Shown here: positions 56,937-60,013 of the stretch, one piece after another
Position numbering within the stretch: the stretch's first letter is position 1
How the letters are laid out: every line of letters starts with the position of its first letter
Source: Rhizobium sp. FKY42
GTDB lineage: Bacteria; Pseudomonadota; Alphaproteobacteria; Rhizobiales; Rhizobiaceae
Assembly (NCBI RefSeq): GCF_005222835.1
Contig: NZ_STGA01000062.1
Span: 1-64,000 of the forward strand
Length of the DNA: 64,000 nt
Direction: 5' to 3'
Program-made: the position numbers and the translations under genes
The notes under the pieces: generated by a model
What the model was told of the DNA's origin: nothing
The model's database searches: none
What the model saw: the letters and a program-made list of their open reading frames with translations, nothing else

Positions 56937-57016
56937 ACCCTGCAGGAAAGATTTGCAATCCATGCGGTGTGGGATAGGTTCTGGTCCATTCGAAACTCCG
57001 CATGCAGGTGAATCCG

Positions 57017-58450
57017 ATGTCCATGAGCAATAACCTTCCTGAAGTCTTCGATGCTGTCGAGAAGAAGAAGGAGGCGTTCATCGGATTGGCAAACCGCGTC
57101 TGGGAGACGCCGGAAACCTGCTACATGGAAACGCAATCGGCTGCCGCGCACCGAGAGATGCTGGAGACTCAAGGTTTTCGCATCACGGAAAACGTTGCGG
57201 GTATCCCGACAGCCTTGATCGGAGAAGCAGGAGAGGGCGGTCCGGTCATAGCCTTCCTTGGCGAATATGATGCGCTGGCCGGTCTCAGCCAGAAGGCCGA
57301 TGTTTCGCATTTCGCGCCGTTAGCACCGAATGCAAACGGCCACGGCTGCGGACATAATCTTCTGGGCTCCGCATCGCTGCTCGCAGCCACAGCGCTGAAG
57401 GATTGGCTGCAGGCTACAGGCACACCCGGTCGTGTTCGCTATTACGGCTGCCCGGCAGAAGAGGGCGGTGCCGCCAAGGCCTTCATGGTGCGGGCTGGCG
57501 CTTTTGAGGATGTCGATATCGCCATTTGCTGGCATCCGAGCAATTTCGCCGGCGTGCAGCGGGAGACCTCGCTTGCCAATTGCCGCATCGATTTCACCTT
57601 TCGGGGGCGCGCGTCGCACGCTTCTGCCAGCCCGGAGCTGGGGCGCAGTGCGCTGGATGCCGTCGAACTGATGAATGTCGGTGTCAACTATCTGCGTGAA
57701 CACATGCAACAGGATTGCCGCATTCACTACGCGCTTCTGGACGCAGGCGGCATTTCTCCAAATGTGGTGCAGGCCTATGCCAAGGTGCGTTACGTGGTGC
57801 GCGCGCCAGAACTTCCCGGCCTTTTCTCGCTGATCGAGCGGGTGAAGAAGGTGGCTGAAGGTGCCGCCCTGATGACCGAAACCACCATGGAAAGCACCAT
57901 CCTCGCTGGCGTTTCCAACCTTGTGGTCAATAGGCCGCTGATGGATGTCATGCAGGATATCTGGCAGAGCCTTGGCACGCCGCAATTCGACGAAAAGGAC
58001 AAGGCCTTCGCAAAATCGATCCGCGATACTCTGTCTGTCGAAGACATTGCCGCCAGCTGGGCGCAGGAGCGTCTGGAGGCGCGAGACGATCTGGCGCTGC
58101 CGGATTTCATTTTGCCGGCTCATAACGAATTGCGCCAAATGGGCGGATCGACCGATGTGGGTGATGTCAGCTGGGTGGTGCCAACCGTGCAGGCCTATGG
58201 CCCAACGCTTGCCATCGGCACGCAACTGCACACCTGGCAGGTGGTGGCGCAGGGCAAGAGTTCGCTTGCACACAAAGGAATGGTTGCAACGGCCAAAGTC
58301 ATGGCAGCAACTGGCCTTGCTGCCATTGAAAGCCCGCAGCTTCGTGAAGCTGCCTGGGCCGATCTGAAGAAGAGATTGAAGGGTCAGCCCTATCGCAGCC
58401 CGATTCCGGACGGTGCCGAGCCTCCCGTCGCTGCCATGACGATCAAGTAA
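57017..58450 (+). CDS. M20 amidohydrolase, AbgB-like
   Basis: A 477-residue zinc amidohydrolase resembling p-aminobenzoyl-glutamate hydrolase subunit B. Metal ligands are seen in GHGCGHNLLG, EYDALAG, AEEGGAAK and CWHPSNF; the dimerisation domain starts DFTFRGRASHASASPELGR. ATG 57017 has GGTGA upstream; 57002 is also possible. It stands alone after cobC and ends 1 base before a 32-bp palindrome. Substrate may be an N-acyl or aminobenzoyl amino acid. Confidence 0.85.
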   Translation: MSMSNNLPEVFDAVEKKKEAFIGLANRVWETPETCYMETQSAAAHREMLETQGFRITENVAGIPTALIGEAGEGGPVIAFLGEYDALAGLSQKADVSHFAPLAPNANGHGCGHNLLGSASLLAATALKDWLQATGTPGRVRYYGCPAEEGGAAKAFMVRAGAFEDVDIAICWHPSNFAGVQRETSLANCRIDFTFRGRASHASASPELGRSALDAVELMNVGVNYLREHMQQDCRIHYALLDAGGISPNVVQAYAKVRYVVRAPELPGLFSLIERVKKVAEGAALMTETTMESTILAGVSNLVVNRPLMDVMQDIWQSLGTPQFDEKDKAFAKSIRDTLSVEDIAASWAQERLEARDDLALPDFILPAHNELRQMGGSTDVGDVSWVVPTVQAYGPTLAIGTQLHTWQVVAQGKSSLAHKGMVATAKVMAATGLAAIESPQLREAAWADLKKRLKGQPYRSPIPDGAEPPVAAMTIK

Positions 58451-58451
58451 T

Positions 58452-58483
58452 GTCTACATGTCTAGATATCTAGACATGTAGAC
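58452..58483. repeat. perfect 32-bp palindrome
   Basis: The left arm GTCTACATGTCTAGAT is followed immediately by its exact reverse complement, with no spacer. Each arm is two 8-base units of the form GTCTANAT, so there are four phased half-sites. It lies 1 base after an M20 gene stop and 69 bases before cls. No T run follows. A multi-site operator seems more likely than a terminator. Confidence 0.9.
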
Positions 58484-58552
58484 TGGTGACTTTCGCGTGG
58501 GACGTTGTCTGAGGCGATTGCGATTTCCTGCGCCGCGCCTATATCGTGAAGC

Positions 58553-60013
58553 ATGCTGGATTTCCTGTCGCCCTATTGGCCGCACATCGTTTTCGTCTTG
58601 TCGGTCGTCATGGGTGCGACTGCGGCCATTCATGTCGCGATGACGAAGGAGGAAGTTCGCTCAGCGGTGGGCTGGGTGGGCGTTATCCTCCTCTCCCCCA
58701 TCATCGGCGCTTTGCTCTATCTCATCGCGGGTATCAACCGGGTTCGTCGCAAGGTCATCTTCAATCGACGACGCCTGAGACAGGGTGGAGTGCTTGCCCA
58801 CCTCGATAATTACGATGCCGATGACATTAGCGTGGCCATGGAATTTGGTCGTCGTTTTCTGGCGATGAAGACACTTGGCGATCGTGTGGCACGCCATCCG
58901 ATGACCAGCAGCAATGAAATAGAATTGCTGGATGGTGGCGATGCGGCGTTCGAGGCCATGCTGTCTGCCATTTCCGCAGCCAAGCGCAGTATCATCCTAG
59001 AAACCTATATCTTTGATCGTGACAGGATTGGTCGTCGCTTTGTTGCCACTCTGGGAGAAGCGGTCGCGCGCGGCGTTCAGGTGCGCGTTCTGATCGATGC
59101 CGTTGGCGCGCGTTACTCCGTGCCCAGTGTTCTCGGCATGCTGAAGGATGTCGGCATCAGCGTCGCAGTGTTCAACGGAAATGTCATCGTAGGGCTCCGT
59201 CAGCCTTACGCGAACCTGCGCACCCACCGGAAAATCATGATCGTCGACGGTGCTGTGGCGTTTACCGGCGGCATGAATATTCGCGAAGATTTCTCCCGCG
59301 CATGCAAGGGTGAAGGCTGCGCGATCGACACGCATTTCCGCATTACCGGTGCGGTCGTTGCTGATCTTTTCGCCATTGCTGCCGAAGACTGGCACTATGC
59401 CAGCGATGAGATTCTCGACGGCGAAGAATGGCAGATTGCAGCCCCAGCCCACGCGCCGGGGCATGCCAAGCTCATTCGGGCGGTCGCCTCCGGGCCAGAC
59501 CGTAGTGTGGAAACCAATCACAAGATGCTGATGGGTGCCTTTTCCGTCGCCCGCTCCAATATCCGCATTGTTTCACCCTATTTCCTGCCGGATCGCGAGT
59601 TGATCAGCGCTATGGCGACTGCAGCACGTAGAGGCGTGACGGTGGATATCGTCGTTCCCGCTTCCAATAACCTGACGCTGGTTGACAGGGCCATGACCGC
59701 ACAGTTCGATCAGGTTCTGAAAGGGCATTGCCGGTTGTGGCGCGCATCCGGTCCCTTCAACCATTCCAAGCTTCTGGTGATTGACGGGCGCTGGGCCTAT
59801 GTCGGTTCCTCCAACATGGATCCGCGTTCGCATCGGCTGAATTTCGAGGTTGATCTGGAGGTGTTCGATCTTTCGTTTGCCGAAATTCTGGAACAACGGA
59901 TCGATCGGTCAATCGAAACTGCAAGTCAGGTCACACTGGAGCAACTGCGAACCAGACCCTTTGCGGTGCGCCTCTTCGAGCGAATTCTATGGCTTGGTTC
60001 ACCCTATCTTTAA
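58553..60013 (+). CDS. cls: cardiolipin synthase
   Basis: A 486-residue phospholipase-D-type synthase. Two N-terminal helices (residues ~8-28 and 38-62) anchor it in the inner membrane; the two HKD motifs are THRKIMIVDG (His 225) and NHSKLLVIDG (His 404), each followed by G-x-N/S-N (GGMNIRE, GSSNMDPRS). Full family length. The 102-base upstream spacer carries the 32-bp palindrome. The EEP gene follows 77 bases later. Confidence 0.92.
   Translation: MLDFLSPYWPHIVFVLSVVMGATAAIHVAMTKEEVRSAVGWVGVILLSPIIGALLYLIAGINRVRRKVIFNRRRLRQGGVLAHLDNYDADDISVAMEFGRRFLAMKTLGDRVARHPMTSSNEIELLDGGDAAFEAMLSAISAAKRSIILETYIFDRDRIGRRFVATLGEAVARGVQVRVLIDAVGARYSVPSVLGMLKDVGISVAVFNGNVIVGLRQPYANLRTHRKIMIVDGAVAFTGGMNIREDFSRACKGEGCAIDTHFRITGAVVADLFAIAAEDWHYASDEILDGEEWQIAAPAHAPGHAKLIRAVASGPDRSVETNHKMLMGAFSVARSNIRIVSPYFLPDRELISAMATAARRGVTVDIVVPASNNLTLVDRAMTAQFDQVLKGHCRLWRASGPFNHSKLLVIDGRWAYVGSSNMDPRSHRLNFEVDLEVFDLSFAEILEQRIDRSIETASQVTLEQLRTRPFAVRLFERILWLGSPYL

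Follow-up and report, generated by a model that had tools for sequence, protein, structure and literature searches.

An exact 32-bp palindrome upstream of cls in Rhizobium sp. FKY42 is probably a PhnF-type operator

Why would an exact 32-bp palindrome lie between two enzyme genes of Rhizobium sp. FKY42, with no regulator gene beside it? The window, by which we mean the whole stretch of 64,000 nucleotides analyzed, contains the sequence GTCTACATGTCTAGATATCTAGACATGTAGAC, a palindrome with no spacer built of four 8-base units (GTCTACAT/GTCTAGAT/ATCTAGAC/ATGTAGAC). A sequence-only reading of this DNA had described the four phased units at 58452-58483, had placed them between an M20 amidohydrolase and a cardiolipin synthase gene (cls), and had seen no adjacent regulator gene. 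The palindrome was found to be exact at that position (Table 1), both genes were identified by family profiles, and no regulator gene was seen among the neighboring open reading frames. One base separates the M20 stop codon from the palindrome, and 69 bases separate the palindrome from the ATG of cls. With up to three mismatches allowed, the palindrome occurs once in the window and once in the whole 4.9-Mb genome, whereas none of 100 shuffles of the window gave any match; by our own arithmetic, which assumes equal base frequencies, 64 kb should contain a perfect 16-bp arm about 1.5e-5 times. The palindrome is real and not a product of chance, as the sequence-only reading had judged.

Table 1. 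Features of the palindrome and its surroundings in the window.
Feature	Position	Strand	Remark
M20 family amidohydrolase	57002..58450	+	TIGR01891, PF01546
Best window match to the phnF-promoter matrix	58450..58477	-	27.3 bits with boxes from other genera only
Perfect palindrome of 32 bp, four 8-bp-phased units	58452..58483	.	Matrix matches on both strands
Core inverted pair TGTCTA-N6-TAGACA	58459..58476	.	Form seen upstream of phnF across the genus
Fourth unit ATGTAGAC, completing the palindrome	58476..58483	.	Altered in both sister species
Apparent cls promoter GATTGC-N17-CTATAT	58516..58544	+	Just before the cls ATG
Cardiolipin synthase (cls), nearest gene downstream	58553..60013	+	TIGR04265, 296.7 bits (cut-off 290)

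A search of the genome with parts of the palindrome, along the lines that the sequence-only reading had proposed, recovered further sites, one of them in the divergent gap between phnF and phnG, on a different contig from the palindrome. The PhnF protein of this genome matches TIGR02325 with 274.5 bits (cut-off 156.8), is present in one copy at E <=1e-50 and carries GntR and UTRA domains (Pfam). Its divergent neighbor is PhnG (TIGR03293), after which, as we read the open reading frames and not from a family search, phnH, I, J and K appear to follow.

The core TGTCTA-N6-TAGACA turned out to accompany phnF throughout the genus. In a sample of 57 genomes, the window's own included, the exact core is found upstream of phnF in all 56 that carry this gene, at 59-96 nt counted from where the PhnF profile begins to match and not from the start codon, and no exact core is present in G078, the sole genome that lacks phnF. 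A single core is present in 52 genomes; G033 has two, Rhizobium lemnae (G020) has three, and the window's genome (G000) and G016 have six each. Away from phnF there are 13 cores, 12 of them in the clade formed by G000, G016 and G020; G033:C6:91115-91132 is the only one outside these three species. The core pattern was defined after the sites of this genome had been seen; a reversed control, ACAGAT-N6-ATCTGT, is absent from 55 of the 57 genomes, with one copy in G021 and five in G016, where it possibly represents a separate repeat family. When one mismatch was allowed, the core did not stand above the reversed control (10 vs 7 in G000, 11 vs 12 in G016, 6 vs 5 in G020), and for this reason only exact cores were used.

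At the level of the family, the PhnF profile finds some match in 286 of 297 genomes and a match above the cut-off in 198. The box was detected by a regular expression in 27 of the 30 best-scoring PhnF loci, which include three from the window's genus, and the other three loci (L084, L085 and L101) carry variants recognized by eye. Such phnF promoters, together with this genome, also served to derive a longer box pattern, which was found in 92 of the 297 genomes, with no more than one box in any row of the table. Between the box and the PhnF match, a TGACA-type repeat was also seen, near 4935-4965 in L032 and likewise in further phnF promoters; it may be a Pho box, which it resembles. In the literature, searched by titles and abstract openings with subscription papers mostly outside its scope, no PhnF box was described for Rhizobiaceae, and the box itself may already be known.

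We scored the palindrome with weight matrices built from phnF promoters. A matrix made from 24 boxes outside the genus, 17 of them distinct, ranks it first in the window, with 27.3 bits compared to 7.8 for the next unrelated place, and gives two further matches on its plus strand (18.6 and 18.1 bits). Addition of three boxes that belong to the window's genus (L078, L080 and L081; 24 distinct 30-mers) yielded 24.7 bits on the minus strand and 15.5 and 15.1 on the plus strand, with the next unrelated place at 5.1 and a peak of 10.0 over 40 Markov windows. By this second matrix the phn operator of this genome is a stronger match than the palindrome (38.3 vs 24.7). The matches on opposite strands suggest that the palindrome is in effect two PhnF-type boxes sharing one common core. 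A third matrix (19 distinct 28-mers) reached a maximum of 13.6 over 20 random 4.9-Mb genomes; applied to places of the genome first located by their core, it gave 39.6 for the phnF-phnG gap, 30.6 for a site inside a gntR gene, 26.5 for cls, 23.3 for a gap between ridA-like and cupin genes, 23.0 for the 3' end of a fosX gene and 15.1, barely above chance, for a site inside a coxE-like gene.

Taken together, the palindrome matches the boxes upstream of phnF better than any other place in the window, PhnF is encoded in the genome, and the motif tracks phnF from genome to genome. The neighbors of the palindrome, M20 and cls, are not phosphonate or phosphate genes, so we use the term PhnF-type site and do not claim that it is proven to belong to the phn regulon. 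The identity of the box, the link between core and phnF within the genus and the multiplied sites described below are the observations that lead us to a reading of the palindrome as, probably, a PhnF-type operator (GntR/HutC) whose regulator would act in trans from its place beside the C-P lyase genes; that PhnF binds the palindrome seems a little more probable still. Binding itself, its cooperativity and the nature of the ligand are what we infer.

The arrangement of the boxes suggests how such binding could take place. Across 27 phnF boxes, centers resembling the HutC consensus score best at offsets of 0, 8 and 16 bp, with means of 4.6, 7.0 and 4.1 of 8, the middle one being the strongest. 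The palindrome extends this 8-bp spacing over four units, and each center fits 5 of the 8 positions of TNGTNTANACNA. Each CTAG, CTAC or GTAG step would then be the center of one HutC-type subsite, with a spacing of 8 bp between successive centers. On this model the core would be bound by PhnF dimers, which would extend from it to the units that flank it on both sides, probably in a cooperative manner, and binding of a phosphonate- or phosphate-type ligand to the UTRA domain would release them. The palindrome and the phnF boxes of the genus and family are alike in core, 8-bp phase and sequence; the palindrome differs in its location, next to cls and remote from the phn genes, and in its four units with exact dyad symmetry, the phnF boxes having three subsites of which the middle one fits best. 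The sequence-only reading had proposed an operator for a dimer of dimers. Its operator part is supported, with PhnF as the proposed regulator, while a dimer of dimers is only possible: the phnF promoters share the core pair and one 8-bp-phased half-site, i.e., three units, and not the fourfold palindrome.

An architecture of this kind has precedents among GntR-family operators. The HutC regulators have the common motif NyGTMTAKACNy, and many operators of the GntR family are reported to have weaker half-sites 7-12 nt off center (PMC4494728). The operator of SdhR, from the HutC subfamily, TCTTATGTCTTATATAAGACATAAGA, is called there a "palindrome with additional symmetry"; it is like ours in general shape and differs in regulator, unit and length. 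NanR, another GntR-family member, binds (GGTATA)3 as three dimers, cooperatively and about half a turn apart (PMC8012715), and its repeat is also written TGGTATAW, with 8 bases (PMC4494728). The closely spaced repeated subsites recall the palindrome, but those of NanR are direct repeats only, and its cooperativity requires a 32-residue N-terminal extension (PMC8012715), while the PhnF of this genome, whose start codon is uncertain, may or may not have extra N-terminal residues. In the dre-sites of NagR and DasR (HutC), of which GTGGTCTAGACCAC was crystallized with NagR, a TCTAGA center is flanked by recognition half-sites, as here, in one dimer site as opposed to a phased array (PMC4333415). 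The PhnF of M. smegmatis represses phnDCE through two sequences in a divergent promoter region (PMC7866108), a likeness drawn from the description and not from the sequence of those sites.

Besides the cls site, the window's genome contains five further exact cores. In this genome and in G016 alike, the cores other than the one at phnF lie at cls, in the ridA/cupin gap, at the fosX 3' end and in two coding sequences. The ridA/cupin site (L049 6977-7004, L066 and L067) lies in a neighborhood that looks like a catabolic cluster, and is preserved in the three species while the remainder of the gap has diverged. The fosX core covers the stop codon of a gene for a FosX-type fosfomycin hydrolase (NF000222, 199 bits, cut-off 170), between convergent 3' ends; a product of this kind hydrates the phosphonate fosfomycin (PMC4790336). 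The site itself (L048 7690-7717, L153) is a tandem array of GTCTAGAT. In the alignment of this locus R. lemnae lacks 16 bp, equal to two 8-bp units, and G016 has the long form; because of the latter, a loss of two units in R. lemnae would be the simpler history, provided that R. lemnae is the sister of G016, a relationship suggested by differences common to both in the alignments and not by a tree. Of the two cores in coding sequence, one is in a gene for a 316-aa protein with a GntR domain (gene, L069 4834-5784; site, L069 5102-5129 = G000:C14:88101-88128), with an identical 26-base site in G016 (L068); it scores 28.5 bits with the matrix that includes same-genus boxes and 32.0 on rescoring. 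The other is an exact core with a perfect TTGTCTAGACAA; each of the three species has it within a CoxE-like VWA gene (L147 5014-5033, L148 and L149).

Given one core in 52 of 57 genomes and three to six in this clade, PhnF-type sites have multiplied here, alongside changes in PhnF itself. The DNA-binding domain of the clade's PhnF (L032 4206-4976) retains NRHTVR; in the region expected to be the wing of this fold, it has K at a position that is Q in 31 of 31 compared sequences, K at one that is R in 30 of 31, and L at one that is R in 28 of 31. The phn box of the clade is CATCTAGACAA, compared to CAACTATACAA and CAACCATACAA as the commonest forms elsewhere, and some other genera also have CTAGACAA at this box. 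A joint change of protein and box is suggestive. In a collection of 84,980 species' genomes, where records of the window's genome or of a very near one may be absent, the clade's box form was found in two stretches, both from R. lemnae (the phnF-phnG and ridA/cupin contigs). We also considered a mobile or dispersed repeat and rejected it, as by eye the sites have no common flanks beyond the box and the boxes differ from one another; in a plasmid search, the best 20 of 63 matched records align from query base 235, i.e., over cls and just before it, and not over the site.

At the cls locus, the likeliest target of the proposed operator would be cls itself, on which the site would act from a position of about -100 to -68. 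The apparent promoter element occurs with equal spacing, with G or C as its first base, in all five relatives in which the cls start was found (L012, L014, L018, L019 and L031, from 27 loci), and a consensus promoter scan near cls detected none. The palindrome does not overlap the promoter, as 32 bases lie between it and the apparent -35 element downstream; with the promoter placed in this way, the mechanism is not obviously one of simple polymerase occlusion. The site might alternatively block read-through transcription arriving from the M20 gene, and action at a distance, activation or no effect at all may also be conceived. Physiological control of cls through this site is a guess, to which we give somewhat less than an even chance.

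A serious alternative to control of cls is a site that PhnF occupies and that is regulatorily idle. Sites for PhnF could have multiplied by drift, by local 8-bp duplication or by relaxed specificity after the wing change, leaving the cls copy as a bystander or as a decoy that titrates PhnF; this account of a site without regulatory purpose is doubtful in our view, but deserves real weight. In the three-species alignment of the cls gap, units 1-3 are identical at 22 of 24 positions and the remaining gap at 64 of 69, so that the site is not kept above its flanks, and the fourth unit (5 of 8) is altered in both of the nearest relatives compared, which makes the perfect palindrome peculiar to this genome. 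The copy of R. lemnae has no exact core and scores 13.5 bits with the matrix that includes same-genus boxes (16.0 and 17.3 on rescoring). Absence from close relatives had been named in advance as evidence against a functional site, and on this point the result is mixed: the cls site is present in both sister species, decayed in one of them, and among the other 54 genomes no exact core occurs away from phnF except in G033. The clade-specific wing residues and the R. lemnae fosX array, shorter by two units, fit the same account, as does the odd placement of other cores, two of six being in coding sequence and one between convergent 3' ends. Against it, the ridA/cupin site has been preserved within a diverging gap, and all six cores exceed, at 15.1 to 39.6, the random maximum of 13.6 obtained with the same matrix.

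Another regulator of the HutC/GntR type with a GTCTAGAC-type motif could also own the operator, for example the GntR protein whose gene on contig C14 itself holds a strong site. HutC regulators have a motif in common, and NagR was crystallized on the site noted above; nevertheless, all 56 genomes with phnF have the core upstream of that gene, the one genome that lacks phnF has no exact core, and that GntR protein has a GntR domain with no UTRA among its Pfam hits, which makes such an owner improbable. Less probable still is a hairpin formed by the M20 transcript at its 3' end, acting either as a stability element or as a terminator, the latter being the function that the sequence-only reading had held out as fatal to an operator. 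The position immediately behind the M20 stop codon would suit it, and a 14-bp stem is predicted, with -24.7 kcal/mol for a 50-base stretch. However, no terminator-like match, i.e., a GC-rich stem followed by a T run, was found in 58300-58700, and no Rfam family matched at E <=1 in 57800-59200. In the relatives the hairpin still forms, but with unpaired positions and a folding energy reduced to -16.3 (G016) and -16.6 (G020); by inspection none of their changes is compensated on both sides, and the motif is also present at the phn promoter. We therefore rejected a terminator or RNA element as the explanation.

In conclusion, a palindrome that had been an orphan is now linked to a named regulator, PhnF, as its probable operator. 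The clade offers a clean natural case in which, over a few species, a bacterial repressor has apparently gone from one binding site to several while both protein and DNA changed. It is conceivable, although rather unlikely, that the clade's PhnF has passed from a local repressor with one site to a regulator with many, its wing and box changed and cls, fosX and a catabolic operon brought within its reach. If so, phosphonate or phosphate status would be conveyed to the membrane lipids through a fourfold, exactly symmetric operator; and if cls does respond, phosphonate/phosphate sensing would be tied to cardiolipin synthesis.
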